From Aureimonas phyllosphaerae (lineage in GTDB: Bacteria > Pseudomonadota > Alphaproteobacteria > Rhizobiales > Rhizobiaceae), in assembly GCF_900113065.1 (NCBI RefSeq), contig NZ_FOOA01000006.1, positions 62,001 through 126,000 on the forward strand: DNA of 64,000 nucleotides, given 5' to 3'. Shown one piece after another: positions 3,356-59,675 of this stretch. Below the pieces are notes generated by a model. It made no database searches, had not been told where the DNA came from, and was given only the letters and a program-made list of their open reading frames with translations. The translations under genes and the position numbers were made by a program. Numbering within the stretch: position 1 is the stretch's first letter; every line of letters begins with the position of its first letter.

Positions 3356-5716
3356 ATGAGCGACGAGAACCAGGGCGGCCGTTCGGGCCGCGGCGGTGCG
3401 GGCCGCGGCCCAGGCGGATCCAAGGGCGGGTCCGTGGGCGGTTCGGGTCCGCGCGGCGGCAAGCCCGGCGGATTCAAGGGCAAGCCGGGCGGCGCGGGCG
3501 GCGATCGGCCGGCCCGTCCCTTCCGGCCGCGCCCCGAGGGCGCCGAAGGCGAGGCGCGCGGCGAGCGCTCCGGCCCGAAGCGGTTCGGCGCCAAGCCGTT
3601 CCGCCCGCGCGAGGGCGAGGGCGGCGGAGGCGAGCGTCCGGCCCGCGCCTTCAAGCCGCGCGGCGAGCGCGCCGAGGGCGGCGATCGGCCGCCGCGCGGT
3701 GACCGCCCGTTCCGCCCGCGCGAGGAGGCCGGTGGAGAGCGCCCCGCCCGGTCCTTCAAGCCGCGTGGTGACCGCGCGGAGGGTGGCGAGCGCCCGTCCC
3801 GCGACCGGAGCGAGGGTGGTGATCGTCCCGCCCGCAACTTCAAGCCGCGCACCGAGGGCGGCGATCGGCCGTTCCGCCCTCGCGAGGAGAGCGGTGGAGA
3901 GCGTCCCGCCCGGTCGTTCAAGCCACGCGGTGACCGCGCGGAGGGTGGCGAGCGTCCGTTCCGCGACCGGAGCGAGGGCGGTGATCGTCCTGCCCGCAGC
4001 TTCAAGCCCCGCACCGAGGGCGGCGAGCGGCCGCCTCGCGGCGACCGTCCGTTCCGCCCGCGCGAGGAGGCCGGGGGCGAGCGTCCGGCCCGTGCCGTCC
4101 GCCCGCGCGAGGAGCGTTCCGAGGGCGGCGAGCGCGCGCCCCGCCGCGACGGCGTCAAGCCCTTCACGCCCCGCTCGCGCGGCATGTTCTCGCATGCCGG
4201 CGCCAAGCGCGAGGGCGAGGGCGGCGAGCGTCCGCGCTCCTACGGCCGCCTCAGCCACGACGGCGCCGAGACCCAGCGCCGTGCGCGCCCGATGGGCGAG
4301 CGGCCCCGCAGCGGGGCGACGGACGGCGAGGACGGCGCACCCGGCACGATGCGCATCGCCAAGCGGCTGGCACGTGCCGGCATCGCCTCGCGCCGCGACG
4401 CGGAAGGGATGATCGCCGACGGGCGCGTGACCTTGAACGGCAAGCGTCTCGACAGCCCGGCGCAGGACGTCACGAATTCGGATCGCATCGAGATCGACGG
4501 CAAGCCCCTGCCGCCGATCGAGCGCACGCGCCTCTGGCTCTTCCACAAGCCGGCCGGCAGCGTCACCACCAACCGCGACCCGGAAGGGCGCCCGACCGTG
4601 TTCGACCGCCTGCCGGCGGACATGCCGCGCGTCCTGACCGTCGGGCGGCTCGACATCAACACCGAGGGGCTCCTCCTTCTCACCAACGACGGCGGCCTTG
4701 CCCGCATCCTGGAGCTTCCCTCCACCGGCTGGCTGCGGCGCTACCGGGTGCGCGCGCATGGCGAGATCACGCAGGAGAAGCTCGACGAGCTGCGCCAGGG
4801 CATCGCGGTCGACGGCGTCTTCTATGGCGCGATCGAGGCGACGCTCGACCGCACGCAAGGATCGAACGTCTGGATGACGATCGGCCTGCGCGAGGGCAAG
4901 AACCGCGAGGTCAAGCGCGTGCTGGGCCATCTCGGCCTCGACGTGAACCGCCTGATCCGCCTGTCCTTTGGACCGTTCCAGCTCGGCGAGCTCGAAGAAG
5001 GCGCGGTGCAGGAGATCAAGGGGCGCATGCTGAAGGATCAGCTCGGGCCGACCCTGATCGAGGAAGCGGGCGCCGACTTCGACGCGCCGATCGTCAACCC
5101 GTTCTCCAACAAGCCGGTGGCCGCCGAGCGCCGCCGGCCAGAGGAGGGCGAGGAGACGCCGAAGCGCGCGGCCGGGGCGAAGAGCGAATGGGTGAGCAAC
5201 TCGCCCGACAGCCCGCGCCCGAACCGGAAGAAGTTCGGCAACGCCAAGCGCGAGGAGGCCCTTGGCCGCCTCGACACGCAGGCGCCGCGCGCGCGCCGCG
5301 ACGACGGCGAGAAGCGGTCGTTCGAGAAGCGCGAGACCAAGCCGTTTGGCGAGCGCAAGCCGCGCGCCTTCGGCGACAAGCCCGCCGGCGGGCGGGACCG
5401 CGACGGCGCGGACGCGGGCGATCGGCCGGCGCGCCGTCCGCCCTCGGCGCCCAAGCGCACCGCCAACGTCTGGATGGCGCCGGGCGCGCGCGCGGTCGGC
5501 GAGAAGACGAAAGCCGCCCGCGAGGAGCGCGCCGCCCGGCGCGCGGCCGAGGACGAGAGCCGCGGCAGCCGTCCGCCAAGAGGCAAGGGACGCTCCGGTG
5601 AAGGGCGCGGCGGCGATCGCCCGCGCACGGGCGGCGACAAGCCGTTCCCCCCGAAGGGCGACGGCCCGCGTTCGGGTCCGCGCTCCGGACCCCGGTCCAG
5701 CCCGCGCAAGGACTGA
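3356..5716 (+). CDS. RluB/RsuA-family pseudouridine synthase with long repetitive N-terminal and basic C-terminal extensions
   Basis: The central third (about residues 332-570 of 786) is a complete RluB-type rRNA pseudouridine synthase. An S4 RNA-binding domain starts at MRIAKRLARAG, and the catalytic motif GRLDINTEGLLLLTNDG carries the nucleophilic Asp at about 433. The likely target is U2605-type positions of 23S rRNA, by family. The first 330 residues are low-complexity Arg/Gly/Glu repeats (GGERPAR, RPFRPREE, SFKPRGDRAEGG), and the last 200 are again Arg/Lys/Pro-rich and probably disordered; both probably bind RNA. Typical RluB is about 250-300 residues, so this one is more than twice as long, although long basic extensions are known in alphaproteobacterial homologues. 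I started at MSDENQ because the upstream in-frame residues look non-coding. Confidence 0.9.
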   Translation: MSDENQGGRSGRGGAGRGPGGSKGGSVGGSGPRGGKPGGFKGKPGGAGGDRPARPFRPRPEGAEGEARGERSGPKRFGAKPFRPREGEGGGGERPARAFKPRGERAEGGDRPPRGDRPFRPREEAGGERPARSFKPRGDRAEGGERPSRDRSEGGDRPARNFKPRTEGGDRPFRPREESGGERPARSFKPRGDRAEGGERPFRDRSEGGDRPARSFKPRTEGGERPPRGDRPFRPREEAGGERPARAVRPREERSEGGERAPRRDGVKPFTPRSRGMFSHAGAKREGEGGERPRSYGRLSHDGAETQRRARPMGERPRSGATDGEDGAPGTMRIAKRLARAGIASRRDAEGMIADGRVTLNGKRLDSPAQDVTNSDRIEIDGKPLPPIERTRLWLFHKPAGSVTTNRDPEGRPTVFDRLPADMPRVLTVGRLDINTEGLLLLTNDGGLARILELPSTGWLRRYRVRAHGEITQEKLDELRQGIAVDGVFYGAIEATLDRTQGSNVWMTIGLREGKNREVKRVLGHLGLDVNRLIRLSFGPFQLGELEEGAVQEIKGRMLKDQLGPTLIEEAGADFDAPIVNPFSNKPVAAERRRPEEGEETPKRAAGAKSEWVSNSPDSPRPNRKKFGNAKREEALGRLDTQAPRARRDDGEKRSFEKRETKPFGERKPRAFGDKPAGGRDRDGADAGDRPARRPPSAPKRTANVWMAPGARAVGEKTKAAREERAARRAAEDESRGSRPPRGKGRSGEGRGGDRPRTGGDKPFPPKGDGPRSGPRSGPRSSPRKD
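3709..4110 (+). repeat. In-frame tandem repeat in the pseudouridine synthase gene
   Basis: Three copies of a unit that begins GTTCCGCCC start at 3709, 3871 and 4051, giving periods of 162 and 180 bp (54 and 60 codons). Each unit encodes RPFRPREE, GGERPAR, FKPRGDRAEGG and related blocks. Copies one and two differ at few positions; the later spacing is lengthened by an extra GGERPPRGD-like block. Frame is kept throughout, as expected for protein-level repeats that expand by recombination or slippage. Confidence 0.85.
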
Positions 5717-45379: not shown

Positions 45380-45396
45380 TGAACGATAGCTGAACG
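45380..45396 (-). promoter_or_regulatory. TGAACG direct repeat upstream of BA14K copy 1
   Basis: TGAACG occurs at 45380 and again at 45391, an 11-bp period, about 85-100 bp upstream of the copy 1 start. The same arrangement stands upstream of copy 2. Direct repeats with one helical turn of spacing are typical of OmpR-type response regulators; the regulator itself is unknown. Confidence 0.45.
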
Positions 45397-46065: not shown

Positions 46066-46093
46066 AACCTGAACGCGACCTGAACGCGTCAGG
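46066..46093. promoter_or_regulatory. Perfect direct repeat plus dyad upstream of BA14K copy 2 and the radical SAM gene
   Basis: ACCTGAACGCG is repeated twice without gap (46066-46076, 46077-46087), and TCAGGT follows, making an ACCTGA-ACGCG-TCAGGT dyad. It lies in the divergent region, 116 bp before BA14K copy 2 and 80 bp before the radical SAM gene, and contains the TGAACG pair with the same 11-bp period as upstream of copy 1. Confidence 0.55.
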
Positions 46094-46173
46094 TTCGAAC
46101 GCTCCGGTCGCAGGCGGTGGAAAAGCCGTCGGCGCGCATGGCCTGAACGAAGCGGGAACACTATATAGAGAGA

Positions 46174-47412
46174 ATGAGCAAGCCGACCCTGATGCAGAAG
46201 CTGGCGATCCTCTCGGACGCCGCCAAGTACGACGCGTCCTGCGCTTCCAGCGGGACGTCGAAACGGGACTCGACGAAGTCCAAGGGCATCGGCTCGACCG
46301 AAGGATCGGGGATCTGCCACGCCTATGCGCCGGACGGGCGGTGCATCTCGCTGCTCAAGATCTTGATGACCAACTTCTGCATCTACGACTGCGTCTACTG
46401 CGTGAACCGCTCGTCCTCCAACGTCGCGCGGGCGCGCTTCTCGGTGGAGGAGGTCGTGAAGCTGACGATGGAGTTCTACAAGCGGAACTATATCGAGGGC
46501 CTGTTCCTCTCCTCCGGCATCATCCGCAACTCCGACTATACGATGGAGGAGATGGTCCGTATCGCGCGAAAGCTGCGGATGGAGGAGAACTTCGCGGGCT
46601 ACATCCACCTGAAAACCATCCCCGACGCGTCGCCGAAGCTGATCGAGGAGGCCGGCCTCTTCGCCGACCGCCTGTCGATCAACATCGAACTGCCGACCGA
46701 CATCGCGCTGGAGGCGCTGGCGCCCGAGAAGAAGCCGCGCGACATCAAGCGCTCGATGGGGCACCTGCGGCTCAAGATCGACGAGCACAAGGGCGAGGCA
46801 AGGGACCGCGCCAAGCCGCCCAAGTTCGCGCCGGGCGGCCAGTCGACGCAGATGATCATCGGCGCCGACGGGGCGAACGACGACCTGATCCTCGGCCGGT
46901 CCGAGAACCTCTACGGCAACTACCGGCTGCGTCGCGTCTATTATTCCGCCTTCTCGCCGATCCCGGATGCCTCCTCGCGGCTGCCGCTCGCCAAGCCGCC
47001 CCTGATGCGCGAGCACCGCCTCTACCAGGCGGACTGGCTGATGCGCTTCTACGGGTTCGGGCGCGACGAGATCGTGTCGGGCGGCTCGGCCGACGGGATG
47101 CTGGACCTTGCCATCGACCCGAAGCTCGCCTGGGCGCTGAAGAACCGCGGGCGTTTCCCGGTCGACGTCAACAAGGCGGATCGCGAAATGCTCCTGCGCG
47201 TGCCGGGCTTCGGCACAAAGGCGGTCGACCGCATCCTCTCGACGCGCCGCCACCGGTCGCTGCGCCTCGACGACGTCGCCCGGCTCTGCCACTCGGTGGA
47301 AAAGGTACGCCCCTTCGTGCAGGCGCTGGACTGGACGCCGGGGGGTCTCACCGACCGGGAGAACCTGCGCGGGCTGGTGGCGCCCAAGGCCGAGCAGCTG
47401 AGCCTCTTCTGA
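46174..47412 (+). CDS. Putative DNA modification/repair radical SAM protein
   Basis: This 412-residue radical SAM enzyme has the [4Fe-4S] motif CIYDCVYC (Cys at about 69, 73, 76), preceded by a Ser/Thr/Lys-rich N-terminus with GSGICHAYAPDGRC. The TIM-barrel half continues to about residue 270. The C-terminus holds a helix-hairpin-helix DNA-binding motif (VNKADREMLLRVPGFGTKAV, from about 332). This family is known to pair with DUF4130/UdgX proteins, as here: its TGA shares one base with the ATG of the next gene. The radical chemistry and substrate are unknown; DNA is likely because of the HhH and the partner. Confidence 0.9.
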   Translation: MSKPTLMQKLAILSDAAKYDASCASSGTSKRDSTKSKGIGSTEGSGICHAYAPDGRCISLLKILMTNFCIYDCVYCVNRSSSNVARARFSVEEVVKLTMEFYKRNYIEGLFLSSGIIRNSDYTMEEMVRIARKLRMEENFAGYIHLKTIPDASPKLIEEAGLFADRLSINIELPTDIALEALAPEKKPRDIKRSMGHLRLKIDEHKGEARDRAKPPKFAPGGQSTQMIIGADGANDDLILGRSENLYGNYRLRRVYYSAFSPIPDASSRLPLAKPPLMREHRLYQADWLMRFYGFGRDEIVSGGSADGMLDLAIDPKLAWALKNRGRFPVDVNKADREMLLRVPGFGTKAVDRILSTRRHRSLRLDDVARLCHSVEKVRPFVQALDWTPGGLTDRENLRGLVAPKAEQLSLF

Positions 47413-48890
47413 TGTTTCTGGCACGCCTCGACCACCCGGCGGATTTCGACGCCTGGCGCGAGGCGGCCCGCACGGCGCTGGCGCTGCACGTCCCGCCGGA
47501 GGAGATGGCCTTCGCCGTCAGTGAGGATCCGGCGCCCCTCTTTGCCGAGCCCCTGCCGGACCGCCCTGCCGACGCCGCGCCCTTCAACGTCCCGAAGGCG
47601 TTTCCGGACGTCGCGCGCAAGCTCATCTGCCACGCCGACCCTGAGCGCTTCGTCTTCGCCTATCGCCTCCTCTGGCGCCTGCAGGACGAGAAGAAGCTCC
47701 TCGAGATTGTCTCCGACCCCGACACGCGCCGCGCCGTCGAGATGCAGAAGGCGGTCTATCGCGACAGTCACAAGATGAAGGCCTTCGTGCGCTTTCGCGA
47801 GATCGAGGACGCCGAGGGCCAGCGCCAGTACATCGCCTGGTTCGAGCCCTTCCACCACGTCGTCGAGCTCACCGCCCCCTTCTTCATGCGCCGCTTCCCC
47901 GGCATGGTCTGGAGCATCCTGACGCCCAAGCGCTCCGTCCACTGGGACGGCGTCGAGATGGTCTTCGCGCCGGGCGCCGACCCCTCGCAGAAGCCGGCCG
48001 ACGACGACATGGAGGCGCTCTGGCTCACCTACTACGCCTCGATCTTCAACCCGGCGCGGCTGAAGGTGAAGGCGATGCAGGCCGAGATGCCGAAGAAGTA
48101 CTGGCACAACCTGCCCGAAGCGACCCTGATCGAGCCGCTGATCCGGGGCGCCGAGGCGGCGCAGCGCCGCATGATCGAAACCCAGCCGACGCTCCCGAGT
48201 TTCCGCCACGAGAAACAGGCGGAGCGAAACGACATGGCACGCGCGGCATCACAGGTTCCGGCCTTCAACGGCTTCAACAAGCCGCCGGAAGACATCGAGG
48301 AGGCGCGCGAGCAGGCTCGGCACTGCAAGGCGTGCCCGCTCTGGGAGCCCGCGACCCAGACCGTCTTCGGCAAGGGCCCGGCCGACGCGCCGGTCATCTT
48401 CGTCGGCGAGCAGCCGGGCGACCAGGAGGATCTGGCCGGCGAGCCCTTCATCGGCCCCGCCGGCAAGGTCTTCGACGAGGCGCTCGCCGCCGCCGGCATC
48501 GACCGCTCCCAGGCCTATGTCACGAATGCCGTGAAGCACTTCAAATTCGAGCCGCGCGGCAAGCGGCGTATCCACGCCAAGCCCAACATGGGCGAGGTCA
48601 AGGTCTGCCGCTGGTGGCTCGAACAGGAGCGCGAGCTCATCAAGCCGAAGCTCATCGTGGCGCTGGGCGCCACGGCCGCGGCATCGGTGCTGGGCAAGAC
48701 CGTGACGATCCGCGACACGCGTTCCAAGCTCATCGACCTGCCCGACGGCACCACCAAGCTCCTCGTCACCGTCCACCCCGCTTACATCCTGCGCCTGCCG
48801 GACCCGGAGGCCCAGGCGCGCGAGCGCGAAGCCTTCCACGCCGACATGGACCGCGCCAAGGCCTACGTGCCGGAGATCGCGCTGGGGTGA
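47412..48890 (+). CDS. DUF4130-UdgX fusion: uracil-DNA-binding/uracil-DNA glycosylase superfamily protein
   Basis: This 492-residue fusion has two parts. Residues 1 to about 250 are a DUF4130 domain (FAYRLLWRLQDEKK, HKMKAFVRFRE, FEPFHHVVELTAPFF, MVWSILTPKRS), the constant partner of the upstream radical SAM protein. Residues about 285-492 are a family-4-like uracil-DNA glycosylase fold with Fe-S Cys (CKACPLW and KVCRWW), motif A GEQPGDQED, HPAYILR near the end, and the loop KRRIH at about 384-388. That loop, with His at about 388, is the hallmark of UdgX, which in mycobacteria forms a covalent bond with uracil-containing DNA and so does not turn over as a glycosylase. The same behaviour here is inference. 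Confidence 0.92.
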   Translation: MFLARLDHPADFDAWREAARTALALHVPPEEMAFAVSEDPAPLFAEPLPDRPADAAPFNVPKAFPDVARKLICHADPERFVFAYRLLWRLQDEKKLLEIVSDPDTRRAVEMQKAVYRDSHKMKAFVRFREIEDAEGQRQYIAWFEPFHHVVELTAPFFMRRFPGMVWSILTPKRSVHWDGVEMVFAPGADPSQKPADDDMEALWLTYYASIFNPARLKVKAMQAEMPKKYWHNLPEATLIEPLIRGAEAAQRRMIETQPTLPSFRHEKQAERNDMARAASQVPAFNGFNKPPEDIEEAREQARHCKACPLWEPATQTVFGKGPADAPVIFVGEQPGDQEDLAGEPFIGPAGKVFDEALAAAGIDRSQAYVTNAVKHFKFEPRGKRRIHAKPNMGEVKVCRWWLEQERELIKPKLIVALGATAAASVLGKTVTIRDTRSKLIDLPDGTTKLLVTVHPAYILRLPDPEAQAREREAFHADMDRAKAYVPEIALG

Positions 48891-49999: not shown

Positions 50000-51520
50000 T
50001 TGACCAAGGTCGCCGTCGATCTCGGAACGACCGCCACGGGCGAGCCGGCGGAGATGGACCTGGAGGAGCTCCTGTCCACGCGCCTTCTGGTGCAGGGCAA
50101 TTCCGGCTCGGGGAAGTCGCACCTCTTCCGCCGCATCCTGGAGCAGAGCGCCGGCTGGGTGCAGCAGGCAATCATCGATCCGGAAGGCGACTTCGTGTCC
50201 TTCTCCGACCGGTTCGGCCATGTCGTGGTGGATGCCGACCGGACGCCGGCCGAGCTCGCCCGCATCGCGACGCGCATCCGCCAGCACCGCGCCTCCGTCG
50301 TCCTTAACCTCGAAGGGCTCGACGCCGAGGTGCAGATGAATTGCGCCGCCGCCTTCCTGAACGGCCTGTTCGACGCCGACCGGCACCACTGGTTCCCGAT
50401 GCTGATCGCGGTGGACGAGGCGCAGATCTTCGCGCCGGCGATCGCCGGCGAGGTGGGGGACGAGGCGCGTCGCATCTCGCTCGGCGCGATGACCAACCTC
50501 ATGTGCCGCGGCCGCAAGCGCGGGCTCGCCGGCATGATCGCGACGCAGCGCCTCGCCAAGCTCGCCAAGAACGTGGCGGCGGAAGCCTCGAACTTCCTGA
50601 TGGGCCGCACCTTTCTCGACATCGACATGGCGCGCGCCGCCGATCTTCTCGGCATGGACCGGCGGCAGGCCGAGCGCTTCCGCGATCTCGAGCCCGGCCA
50701 TTTCGTGGCGCTAGGGCCGGCGCTGTCGCGCAAACCCATTCCGCTGCGCATCGGCCCGGTCGAGACGGCCGGGCGCTCGGGCCGCCCGGTGCTAATGGCG
50801 CTGCCCGAGGCGAGCCCGGCCGAGATGGCCGACCTCATCTTCACCGCTGGCGCGGACGAGCCGGTCGCCCTGCCGGCGCCGGTTCGGCGCGAGCCGGCGG
50901 TGGCGACGCGCGAGCTTCTGGAGCGCGTCTCGGCGCCGCGCCTTGCCGCGCCCGCGCCGCCGGACGAGGAGCCGGGGGAGGACGAGGAGACGCTGGCCGA
51001 GCGCCAGGAGCGGATCGATTCGATCTTCACCGAGCTGATGGCCGATCCGGAGGCGGCGTTCCGCCCCGTCCAGACGCTTTATCAGGACTTCCTCACCCAT
51101 TGCCGGCTGAAGCGCCTGTCACCGGGTGCGCTGGATCTTGCCGGCTTCCGGCGCAAGCTCGCGCTGGCGCGCGCCGGGGTCGGAGCCGACGGCGAGGACG
51201 AGGCCTGGACCGAGGTCGTGGCACGCTCGGAGGAGCTGCCGGAGGACATGCAGGGGGTCTATCTCCTGCTCGCCAAGGCGGCGCGCGATGCCGAGCCCTG
51301 TCCGGGCGACGAGGTGCTGGCGCGCGCCTACGGCAGCCATTCGCCCTCGCGCGGGCGCTTCCTTCTGACTTGGATGGCCGAACGCGGCTATATCGCGGCC
51401 GAGACCGACTTCCGGGGCAACCGCGTCGTAACGATCGCCGGCAACAACTGGCGCACGGGCGCGGGCAGCGCCAAGCCGCGCGGGGCCAGCGCAGCGCCGC
51501 GCCTGCGCCGGGTGAAATAA
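50000..51520 (+). CDS. HerA-like (DUF87) P-loop ATPase
   Basis: This is a 506-residue ATPase of the HerA/FtsK superfamily. The P-loop is GNSGSGKS (about 33-40) and the Walker B is LIAVDEAQIF (Asp at about 139, Glu about 140), followed by CRGRKRGLAGMIATQRLAK with the sensor Gln and Arg. A flexible Pro/Glu segment (about 305-335) leads to a C-terminal domain of about 160 residues that I do not recognise. HerA normally pumps DNA with the nuclease NurA in resection, or with other effectors in defence systems; no nuclease is adjacent. TTG 50000 with GGAG 10 bp upstream is the only good start. Confidence 0.85.
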   Translation: MTKVAVDLGTTATGEPAEMDLEELLSTRLLVQGNSGSGKSHLFRRILEQSAGWVQQAIIDPEGDFVSFSDRFGHVVVDADRTPAELARIATRIRQHRASVVLNLEGLDAEVQMNCAAAFLNGLFDADRHHWFPMLIAVDEAQIFAPAIAGEVGDEARRISLGAMTNLMCRGRKRGLAGMIATQRLAKLAKNVAAEASNFLMGRTFLDIDMARAADLLGMDRRQAERFRDLEPGHFVALGPALSRKPIPLRIGPVETAGRSGRPVLMALPEASPAEMADLIFTAGADEPVALPAPVRREPAVATRELLERVSAPRLAAPAPPDEEPGEDEETLAERQERIDSIFTELMADPEAAFRPVQTLYQDFLTHCRLKRLSPGALDLAGFRRKLALARAGVGADGEDEAWTEVVARSEELPEDMQGVYLLLAKAARDAEPCPGDEVLARAYGSHSPSRGRFLLTWMAERGYIAAETDFRGNRVVTIAGNNWRTGAGSAKPRGASAAPRLRRVK

Positions 51521-57671: not shown

Positions 57672-59675
57672 TCAGACGGCGCGGGCCAGCATCGGCGTCG
57701 TCGGCAGAACGAAGGGCGTCGGCTTGCCGAACAGGTAGCCCTGCGCCCCGTCGCAGCCGATGCGGCGCAGGATGTCGCGCTGGGCGGGCGTCTCGACGCC
57801 TTCGCCGACGATCGCGATCTCCATGTCGCGGCCCATCTGCGCGATGCCTTTCAGGACCGCCATGGAGTTGCGGTCGATTTCCGCCGACGTGACGAAGCTG
57901 CGGTCGATCTTGATCACGTCGACCGGCAGGCGCCGGAGGTGGGACAGGGACGAGAAGCCGGTGCCGAAGTCGTCCATGGCGACCCTGACCCCGAGGGCAC
58001 GCACCGCGTTCAGGATGGCGGCGACCTCGTCGTGGTTGGCCACGATTGCGGTTTCCGTCAGTTCGATCGTCAGGCGCTGCGGCGGCAGGCCGGTTTCAGC
58101 CAGGATCCGCGCGACCAGCGCCGGAAACCGCGCCGAGCGCAGCTGCAGTGCCGAGACGTTCACCGCGACATAGAGATCCGAGGGCCAGGCGGACGCCTTC
58201 AGGCAGGCGTCCTTCAGGACCCACTCCCCGATGGGACCGATCGCGCCGGAGGCCTCGGCCAGGGGAATGAACTCGGCCGGCGACACCGGCCCGCGCATCG
58301 GATGCGTCCAGCGCAGGAGCGCCTCGTATCCGAAGATGGAAAGCGTCTCGGGGTTGACGATCGGCTGGAAGTGCAGGCGGAACTCGTCGCGCTCGACCGC
58401 GGACTGGAGATCGCTCTCCAACTGGGCCCGTTGGCGGTCGGCCTCGCGCATGCCGGGCGTGAAGCGCACCACCTGCCCGCGGCCGCGACGTTTGGCCTCG
58501 TAGAGGGCCGCATCGGCCCGGCGCGTGATCGTCTCGGCATCCTCGGCATTCTCGATGCTGCAGATGCCGATCGAGCAGCCCGACAGGATCTGGCGTCCGT
58601 CGATGTCCATCGGCTCGCGCAGCGCCGCGCCGAACTCGTGCGCCATCTGCGCCGCCGATTCCGGGTTGTCGAAGACGAGCGCCGCCAGTTCGTCACCGCC
58701 GATGCGGTAGCCGTAGGTGCCCGGACCCATCGAGGCCTGGAAGCGCCGCGACACTTCGCACAGGAGCTTGTCGCCCGTCGCGTGGCCGTAGGTGTCGTTG
58801 ATCGACTTGAAGTGATCGAGGTCGATCATCATCAGCTTGAACCAGCGGCCTTCGGCCAGCGCCTGGTCCATCTTGAGCTGGAGCGCGCGCCGGTTGGGAA
58901 GGCCGGTCAGGGGATCGCGGTAGGCCATGTCGAGAAGCGACCGGTCCGCCCGCGTCCGCTCGTCCATGTCGATGATCGAGGTCGACAGGCCGGTGCCCAC
59001 GATGAGCAGCGCCACGATCGCGATCGCGAGCGCCATGCCGGTCGATCCGACGCCGGCCGCCGTCGTCTCGCTCGCGATGGGCGTCAGCGTCAGCGCCTGC
59101 ATGCCGAAGAGGTGGAGGGTGATGATGCCGAGCGCCAGAAGCCCGGCCGCGAGCGCTTCGCGGCGCAGGCCGGCCGAGCCGCGGAGCGTCCACAGGGCGC
59201 CGGTGCTGAAGGCGATGGATGCGGCGAGCGACAAGGCCGCCGCGAAGCCGTCCCAGTGCAGGACGCCCGGGACCTGATACCCGAACATGCCGAGATAGTG
59301 CATGCCGGTGATCGACACGCCGAGCATGGCACCACCTGCGAGCGTGCGCATCCGCGTCGGCACGCGGCCCGCCAGCGCCAGCGCGATGCCGGAGCCCGCG
59401 ATCGCGACCAGCGTGGACAGGACGGTGAGCAGCGGGTCGAACGTCGCGGGAACATCGGGGCGGTAGCCGAGCATCGCGACGAAATGCGTCGTCCAGGTCG
59501 AGATGCCCGTGCTGATCGCCGCAAGGAACAGCCAGCCGATCCGCGCCCGCCCGTCGAACGAGCGGCTGCGCACGAATAGCGTCATGGTGACGAAGGCGCC
59601 ACTGGCGCACACGATGGCCGCAAGGAGCAGCAGCGTCAGCTGATGTTCCAGGACGAGGCATGTGGACAGGACCAT
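57672..59675 (-). CDS. MHYT-GGDEF-EAL membrane protein (c-di-GMP turnover)
   Basis: This is an inner-membrane c-di-GMP enzyme of 667 residues. The first 230 residues are seven hydrophobic helices with MHYT-type motifs: THFVAM (about 63), GMHYLGM (about 124) and a degenerate LHLFGM (about 187). MHYT domains are proposed to bind a metal and sense O2, CO or NO. The GGDEF domain has RIGGDEL (about 324-330; the last residue is Leu, and no RxxD inhibitory site precedes it), and the EAL domain has YEALLRW (about 450), DDFGTGFSSL and VEGVETPAQ, all complete, so phosphodiesterase activity is more certain than cyclase. A GGAGAG site supports ATG 59675 over TTG 59699. It separates crtB from crtE. Confidence 0.92.
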   Translation of the reverse strand: MVLSTCLVLEHQLTLLLLAAIVCASGAFVTMTLFVRSRSFDGRARIGWLFLAAISTGISTWTTHFVAMLGYRPDVPATFDPLLTVLSTLVAIAGSGIALALAGRVPTRMRTLAGGAMLGVSITGMHYLGMFGYQVPGVLHWDGFAAALSLAASIAFSTGALWTLRGSAGLRREALAAGLLALGIITLHLFGMQALTLTPIASETTAAGVGSTGMALAIAIVALLIVGTGLSTSIIDMDERTRADRSLLDMAYRDPLTGLPNRRALQLKMDQALAEGRWFKLMMIDLDHFKSINDTYGHATGDKLLCEVSRRFQASMGPGTYGYRIGGDELAALVFDNPESAAQMAHEFGAALREPMDIDGRQILSGCSIGICSIENAEDAETITRRADAALYEAKRRGRGQVVRFTPGMREADRQRAQLESDLQSAVERDEFRLHFQPIVNPETLSIFGYEALLRWTHPMRGPVSPAEFIPLAEASGAIGPIGEWVLKDACLKASAWPSDLYVAVNVSALQLRSARFPALVARILAETGLPPQRLTIELTETAIVANHDEVAAILNAVRALGVRVAMDDFGTGFSSLSHLRRLPVDVIKIDRSFVTSAEIDRNSMAVLKGIAQMGRDMEIAIVGEGVETPAQRDILRRIGCDGAQGYLFGKPTPFVLPTTPMLARAV

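Follow-up and report, generated by a model that had tools for sequence, protein, structure and literature searches.

Three protein families named in NCBIfam, a putative DNA modification/repair radical S-adenosylmethionine (SAM) protein (TIGR03916, rSAM_link_UDG), a putative DNA repair protein containing the domain DUF4130 (TIGR03915) and a UdgX family uracil-DNA binding protein (TIGR03914), are the closest described counterparts of the two adjacent genes considered here, which lie in a stretch of 64,000 nucleotides of Aureimonas phyllosphaerae DNA (the whole of which we call the window). COG4277 we take to be the radical SAM family TIGR03916, and the operon published as COG1573-COG4277 to be this same gene pair. 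The association of DUF4130 has been in print since 2013, when PMC3765255, where it touches on the domain, described it as an enzyme predicted to be related to mutagenesis and linked it to SplB-like photolyases of the radical SAM type and to uracil-DNA glycosylases (UDGs). SOS control is partly in print as well: the section of PMC8565304 on the COG1573-COG4277 operon predicts it for Bacteroidetes and describes it as reported in Verrucomicrobia and Alphaproteobacteria. UdgX, according to the remarks on its function in PMC10359453, captures rather than turns over, and its physiological role is there called largely unknown. Among the papers that our literature search covered, none joins radical SAM enzymes with UdgX or UdgX with the SOS response, and none mentions TIGR03915. 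What is added here is a division of the system into core and accessory parts, a series of natural deletions, a pattern of six cysteines and a group of Bacteroidota partner genes free of UDG. The core unit is the radical SAM protein together with DUF4130, and UdgX is an optional add-on.

The window pair lies far above all three family cut-offs and has an SOS-type promoter; no structural difference from the described pair was found, and it is an ordinary UdgX-fused member of the group. The radical SAM protein matches TIGR03916 at 565.6 bits (cut-off 343.5; E 7e-170; positions 1-383 of the 415 of the model) and the Radical_SAM model of Pfam. In the second protein, the first part matches TIGR03915 at 214.4 bits (cut-off 112.25; E 2e-63) and Pfam DUF4130 at residues 78-236 (135.4 bits, cut-off 27; E 2e-39), and the remainder matches TIGR03914 at 333.3 bits (cut-off 189.95; E 8e-100) and Pfam UDG at residues 319-472 (E 7e-32). 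A preliminary description, drawn from the letters of the window, had proposed two genes overlapping within TGATG, a CxxxCxxC motif in the first, and in the second a fusion of DUF4130 to a UdgX domain with GEQPGDQED and KRRIH. The gene limits proved correct to the base, the one shared base being the A, the fusion and the motifs are as described (Table 1), and the histidine that it singled out is indeed H388, as KRRIH begins at residue 384. It had missed two LexA-type boxes upstream of the pair and three further invariant cysteines in the radical SAM protein. Third-position GC is 0.94 in the first gene and 0.93 in the second.

Pairing was scored in 249 genomes of the window's phylum, Pseudomonadota, presence being a score over the family cut-off. 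Seven genomes with weak radical SAM matches below the cut-off and one with a DUF4130 remnant (genome G071) were excluded from the counts, as were sub-cut-off matches to TIGR03914, which by score are mostly ordinary UDG-like proteins (192 of the 249 genomes have a match at E 0.001). The radical SAM protein is present in 39 genomes, DUF4130 in 41 and UdgX in 38. Every one of the 39 genomes with the radical SAM protein has DUF4130 (Fisher P 1e-43, relatedness ignored), and UdgX accompanies it in 29 (P 1e-21, again ignoring relatedness) and is missing at the cut-off in ten; another nine of the 249 have UdgX over the cut-off without the radical SAM protein. DUF4130 and UdgX share one open frame at 27 of the 39 loci, and the other two UdgX-positive loci show a contig break (locus L097) and a split frame (L114).

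The pairing extends to Bacteroidota, the phylum of the Capnocytophaga genome, where DUF4130 was scored by PF13566: among 198 genomes the radical SAM protein was found in 60, DUF4130 in 62 and both in 58. Both genomes with the radical SAM protein alone (G277, G374) have it at a contig edge; of the four with DUF4130 alone, G305 and G313 hold a broken or partial radical SAM match below the cut-off and G286 and G387 hold none. None of the DUF4130 open frames listed for this phylum exceeds 371 residues, and they are therefore too short for a UdgX fusion. A second set comprised the best 80 of 589 confirmed radical SAM places in the genomes of named species, mostly Bacteroidota, together with relatives of Psychrobacter, Moraxella and Acinetobacter, of Brachymonas and of Fibrobacter. 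DUF4130 lies inside the fetched locus in 75 of these, within 500 bp of the radical SAM gene in 69. Four apparent cases of a radical SAM gene without it (L146, L172, L216, L217) were rejected, the DUF4130 gene being located elsewhere in the genome, and the sole locus of the 80 for which no DUF4130 was found, L222, has its radical SAM gene cut by the contig end. The radical SAM gene was thus seen without DUF4130 only at contig ends, and the occurrence of the family in many genomes without a partner, named beforehand as a refuting result, was looked for and, with respect to DUF4130, not found. A profile search of the 80 loci gave no UDG match, hence none in the 75 partner genes, and Pfam, applied to the 80 sequences of our DUF4130 alignment A4 (71 of the 75 partner genes and nine others, including the first 245 residues of the window's protein with the UDG part cut off), recognised DUF4130 and no UDG. 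As a side observation, the radical SAM and DUF4130 genes are separated at L120 by a beta-helix/NosD-like gene and one without a match over the cut-off, and at L121 by one called gene, hemerythrin-like; these look unrelated to repair.

UdgX has a use of its own, separable from the radical SAM protein, because it survives natural loss of that protein (L133, L134, L135, L137). At L135, in genome G071, the flanks are 86-90% identical to those of the intact locus L096 of G123, a genome of the same genus, and bases 6103-7956 of L096 have no counterpart. The loss takes out nearly all of the radical SAM gene, reaches about 207 codons into the DUF4130 gene and leaves UdgX and the LexA-type box in place. 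A similar gap is found at L137 (G051), without an exact box, and at L136 and L138 (G055, G171) UdgX follows the same upstream gene, likewise without a box. At L133 and L134 (G200, G217) the stretch missing by comparison with related loci corresponds to the radical SAM gene (6957-8192 of L102 and 6969-8207 of L099, respectively), with box and UdgX kept; in G217 the DUF4130 domain also lacks the segment holding P227 and W231.

The operon looks SOS-controlled, judging from its upstream sequences. Exact LexA-type boxes precede the radical SAM gene at 36 of the 39 Pseudomonadota loci. In the window's class, GAAC-N7-GAAC on either strand occurs within 200 bp upstream of the start at all 28 loci (0.0045 expected per 200 bp, the rate being taken from the remainder of the loci) and twice in the window; a conserved site near the start, as in the LexA regulon of this class, is thus present. 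At 8 of the 11 loci of other Pseudomonadota classes an exact CTGT-N8-ACAG, which we take to be the LexA box of the gamma and beta classes, lies upstream (expected 0.0027). Counted over both strands, the A. phyllosphaerae genome contains 156 copies of the GAAC-N7-GAAC pattern and 49 of the reversed control; one copy stands about 43 bp ahead of the lexA match. In its lists of motifs PMC8565304 gives GTTC-N7-GTTC as the alphaproteobacterial LexA motif and CTAA-N5-TTAG and GGA-N5-TCC as SOS motifs of Bacteroidetes. Among the 80 loci, where the start of the tblastn match served as gene start, CTAA-N5-TTAG lies upstream in 19 (expected 0.0046), GGA-N5-TCC in 11 (expected 0.039) in three or four copies each, and GAAC-N7-GAAC in three Chryseobacterium loci (expected 0.34; a single genus). 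At 12 of these loci, 11 of which carry GGA-N5-TCC sites, the opposite strand holds a gene from a single blastp cluster at a distance of 3-520 bp from the radical SAM gene; the one member tested (L164) has a helix-turn-helix and a peptidase S24 domain and is LexA-like. SOS boxes also stand at loci free of UdgX, for instance L110 and L116. What emerges is a radical enzyme, apparently under SOS control, that in two phyla hardly ever occurs without DUF4130 and stands behind four different SOS-type motifs across lineages, and UdgX thereby gains an SOS setting that can be tested.

Genes of DNA repair adjoin the pair in several relatives. The description of the pair as an isolated cassette holds in the window, where the genes flanking the pair (BA14K-like genes on the opposite strand, a D-lyxose isomerase on the other side) are unrelated, but not for these relatives. 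At L109, L113 and L114 the gene immediately after DUF4130-UdgX, on the same strand, encodes a DnaE2-type polymerase, with an IMS-family (Y-family, ImuB-like) gene upstream at L109 and L113, and a DnaE2 gene lies upstream on the opposite strand at L099, L102 and L105; two DnaE2 (L099, L109) and two IMS (L102, L113) genes were tested against family models, the remaining neighbours being assigned by blastp cluster. Near L118 there are a cisplatin-damage ligase (TIGR04120) and a ligase-associated exonuclease (TIGR04122), and by annotation the same two genes occur on the Phaeobacter plasmid pPGA1_262. UvrA (tested for L163) is found near several Flavobacteriaceae loci, which may reflect shared synteny. 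These neighbours and the SOS-type boxes support and strengthen the reading as an uncharacterised DNA-repair module given in the preliminary description; the word uncharacterised should be qualified, the families being named, the association noted in 2013 (PMC3765255, in the part cited above) and SOS control predicted and reported (PMC8565304, in its section on the operon).

Table 1. The gene pair and its parts, numbered from the first base of the window.
Feature	Position	Strand	Details
Radical SAM protein, TIGR03916 (rSAM_link_UDG)	46174..47412	+	412 residues, ATG to TGA; C69/C73/C76 (CxxxCxxC), extra C23/C48/C57; HhH-like stretch about 326-380
DUF4130-UdgX fusion	47412..48890	+	492 residues, ATG to TGA; 1-base overlap with the radical SAM stop codon
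DUF4130 / TIGR03915 domain	47412..48146	+	residues 1-245; NCBIfam, Pfam and 80-sequence alignment
UdgX domain / TIGR03914	48126..48851	+	residues 239-480; NCBIfam, 6ail alignment, Foldseek
Motif A GEQPGDQED	48405..48431	+	residues 332-340; aligned to UdgX 6ail
R-loop KRRIH	48561..48575	+	residues 384-388; H388 corresponds to DNA-crosslinking H109 of M. smegmatis UdgX
LexA-box-like GAACGCGACCTGAAC (GAAC-N7-GAAC)	46071..46085	+	103 bp 5' of the radical SAM start
LexA-box-like GAACGAAGCGGGAAC (GAAC-N7-GAAC)	46145..46159	+	29 bp 5' of the radical SAM start

The solved UdgX of M. smegmatis is the closest structure to the window domain (in Foldseek, identity about 45% and a target TM-score of 0.87), and the comparison of the KRRIH loop with a characterised UdgX that had been proposed as a check places it on the R-loop of that protein (6ail, E 5e-48), with GEQPGD aligned as well, so that family score, alignment and fold all bear out the UdgX assignment. 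Among the 38 UdgX domains examined, all have the R-loop histidine and 37 have GEQPG, the exception being L114. Unlike M. smegmatis UdgX, the window domain is fused to DUF4130 within a radical SAM operon, and its motif B reads HPAYILR rather than HPSSLLR, HPA occurring in 3 of the 38. Some side observations concern the same domain. Five fused UdgX domains (L098, L100, L103, L104, L106) are without the CxxC pair and the later cysteine, presumably Fe-S (iron-sulphur) ligands, and keep GEQPGD and the R-loop histidine. At L114 (G155, 3356-4822) the UdgX part runs over two frames beside a gene of the DnaE2 cluster, as a sequencing error or a decaying gene would. The window's genome (G000) holds three more UDG-superfamily matches (C43:230506, C43:207744, C43:128502).

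In all 72 radical SAM proteins aligned, C23, C48, C57, C69, C73, C76 and H49 are invariant, and the three cysteines N-terminal to CxxxCxxC may ligate an auxiliary Fe-S cluster or relay electrons or hydrogen atoms. MiaB, RimO and LipA carry an auxiliary cluster on N-terminal cysteines, with a spacing unlike that seen here; although MiaB, RimO and lipoyl synthase are among the structural matches of the window protein, none of their domains is found in its NCBIfam or Pfam matches. DUF4130 has twelve invariant residues in the 80-sequence alignment (R127, F128, P146, F158, R161, W167, W204, Y207, R216, P227, W231 and E236), in which most sequences are about 20% identical to that of the window.

The most likely explanation is an SOS-induced radical enzyme for DNA lesions with a separable domain that captures uracil or apurinic/apyrimidinic sites. 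LexA cleavage would free the promoter with its two GAAC-N7-GAAC boxes and so induce the window's operon; the radical SAM protein and DUF4130 would then form one working unit, perhaps a physical complex, in which the former would hold DNA through its C-terminal helix-hairpin-helix (HhH) region and the latter would recognise the lesion or complete the active site. The 5'-deoxyadenosyl radical would act on the damaged nucleotide so that the damage is undone or can be passed by translesion synthesis; we infer a direct conversion of a replication-blocking lesion. The fused UdgX would be a second tool, which may excise uracil, keep a covalent link to the abasic site by way of H388 and shield that site during repair or replication. 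In trapping abasic DNA covalently as part of a damage response it would resemble the abasic-site shield HMCES/YedK (SRAP), a protein family unrelated to UdgX. Taken whole, from SOS operon through radical SAM-DUF4130 core to separable UdgX, we consider this explanation probable, if not by a wide measure, with more confidence in the regulation and modularity than in the chemistry. What the computations show directly is the gene structure, the family membership, the pairing, the conservation, the SOS-type boxes and the separability of UdgX. In a bolder version the system would stand beside spore photoproduct lyase, unrelated to it in detail, as a second type of radical SAM enzyme that repairs DNA: an SOS-induced enzyme of two proteins, the radical SAM protein with an N-terminal three-cysteine auxiliary cluster and DUF4130, would direct a radical at a replication-blocking lesion, would sometimes be wired to ImuB-DnaE2, and in some lineages would carry UdgX as a covalent cap for uracil or abasic sites; this we put forward as a tentative possibility.

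Several observations weigh against the favoured explanation. Exact boxes are absent at three of the 39 Pseudomonadota loci (L125 and L127 have none, L132 a near match), and 47 of the 80 loci show none of the five motifs tested. DUF4130 stands over its cut-off without the radical SAM protein in 2 of 249 Pseudomonadota and 4 of 198 Bacteroidota genomes; since these genomes keep it, DUF4130 may to some extent have a role independent of that protein. Its profile finds no solved relative (best E 0.037, to designed proteins), and the best 50 of the 609 Foldseek matches of the whole fusion consist of members of the UDG superfamily and a single phage polymerase. The AlphaFold model of the radical SAM protein has a predicted local distance difference test score (pLDDT) of 85.7, which falls below 50 at residues 23-28 and 43-57; because the three-cysteine loop is the part predicted with low confidence, the auxiliary cluster is guesswork based on conservation. 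The C-terminal HhH motif announced in the preliminary description is recognisable as an HhH-like stretch (VPGFGTK at 343), while its profile matches, to the HhH proteins ComEA and RuvA, are weak (E 0.019-0.044).

The weakness of these HhH matches would suit an enzyme that is SOS-induced and acts on RNA, protein or a nucleotide instead of DNA. The folds point the same way: with HydE first (E 5e-9), the best 50 of the 114 Foldseek matches at E 0.001 or below include BioB, ThiH, MqnE, HydG, PflA, viperin, MiaB, RimO, lipoyl synthase and others, so that the closest are radical SAM enzymes modifying small molecules, tRNA or proteins. The fusion to UdgX, the repair genes alongside and the damage-type promoters speak for DNA as the substrate, and we regard a non-DNA substrate as unlikely.

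Equally unlikely, in our estimate, is a second photolyase of the spore photoproduct lyase type, reversing thymine dimers directly by radical chemistry. Spore photoproduct lyase (SplB) shares the radical SAM motif with the window protein, and it needs a conserved hydrogen-donor cysteine downstream of CxxxCxxC. Among the 72 radical SAM sequences no cysteine is conserved after CxxxCxxC (best column 24 of 72), and the window protein has no spore photoproduct lyase match in NCBIfam at E 0.001, where it finds only TIGR03916 and a 19-bit match to HydE; membership of that family was rejected on these two sequence tests, and the lyase is also missing from the best 50 of the 114 structural matches. In favour of such a photolyase, SOS control would fit ultraviolet damage, a figure legend in PMC3765255 ties DUF4130 to SplB-like radical SAM photolyases, and SOS control of splB is predicted for alpha- and beta-Proteobacteria in the relevant part of PMC3323433. 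The pages of PMC8565304 on these genes, however, count SplB (COG1533) among the SOS genes separately from the COG1573-COG4277 operon.

The preliminary description had proposed a single pathway, in which uracil-containing DNA is first captured covalently by UdgX, then presented by DUF4130 and finally subjected to radical chemistry on the captured base or strand; that last step might, for example, release the crosslink. The one-base overlap of the genes in the window, the single frame of DUF4130 and UdgX at most Pseudomonadota loci, the intact UdgX residues and a co-occurrence of UdgX with the radical SAM protein far above chance are all what such a pathway would give. The serial scheme is nevertheless improbable, because the core persists without UdgX (in ten Pseudomonadota genomes and all 75 UDG-free partner genes, and behind SOS boxes at UdgX-free loci) and UdgX persists without the core after natural loss of the radical SAM gene; as a general mechanism that order of events finds no support.

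Less probable still is a base-excision system in the SOS response centred on uracil-DNA glycosylase, as suggested for COG1573-COG4277 in the corresponding section of PMC8565304, which proposes that it counters ribonucleotide misincorporation by SOS polymerases. SOS regulation and the linkage to DnaE2 accord with it, but a function common to all these loci can hardly lie in a UDG, as no UDG match was obtained for any of the 75 partner genes, and UdgX captures rather than turns over (PMC10359453, as cited above). The Bacteroidetes operon published under this heading thus appears to be UDG-free in 75 partner genes, mostly of Bacteroidota, and the COG1573 label there may come from fused relatives.

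An anti-phage or DNA-hypermodification cassette, for which the words "DNA modification/repair" in the NCBIfam title could be cited, is very improbable given SOS-type promoters and repair neighbours, weak PHROG matches (radical SAM protein E 0.0075; UDG part 2.9e-4, to a phage DNA polymerase family) and no PADLOC model match at E 0.01, on which a known defence system was rejected.

Ten of 50,697 phage records match the query protein P0001, eight of them unannotated "Bacteriophage sp." of faecal origin and two "Acinetobacter phage MD-2021a". In the Acinetobacter phage record that was opened, of 240 kb (L224; CAKLQH020000003.1, 86422-99552), the radical SAM-DUF4130 pair adjoins glyQ and glyS; this is likely bacterial DNA because of those two genes, and phage origin was rejected for it. 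Plasmids carry the radical SAM gene in 158 of 72,556 records, with relatives annotated under the same family names; 58 of the 158 are from Phaeobacter and 142 are predicted non-mobilizable, and the closest named relatives among the matches listed are from Rhizobium, Phaeobacter, Agrobacterium and the like.

Elsewhere in the window, the BA14K-like genes encode two small proteins (Pfam PF07886; 44853-45305 and 45501-45950, reverse strand) and are divergent from the box at 46071; a LexA-box-like site at 45381 lies with them. The fourth GAAC-N7-GAAC of the window is GAACGTCGCGGGAAC, at 59439-59453. Beyond the D-lyxose isomerase gene that follows the operon, positions 50000-51520 of the forward strand encode a protein whose ATPase domain (DUF87) is of the HerA type.

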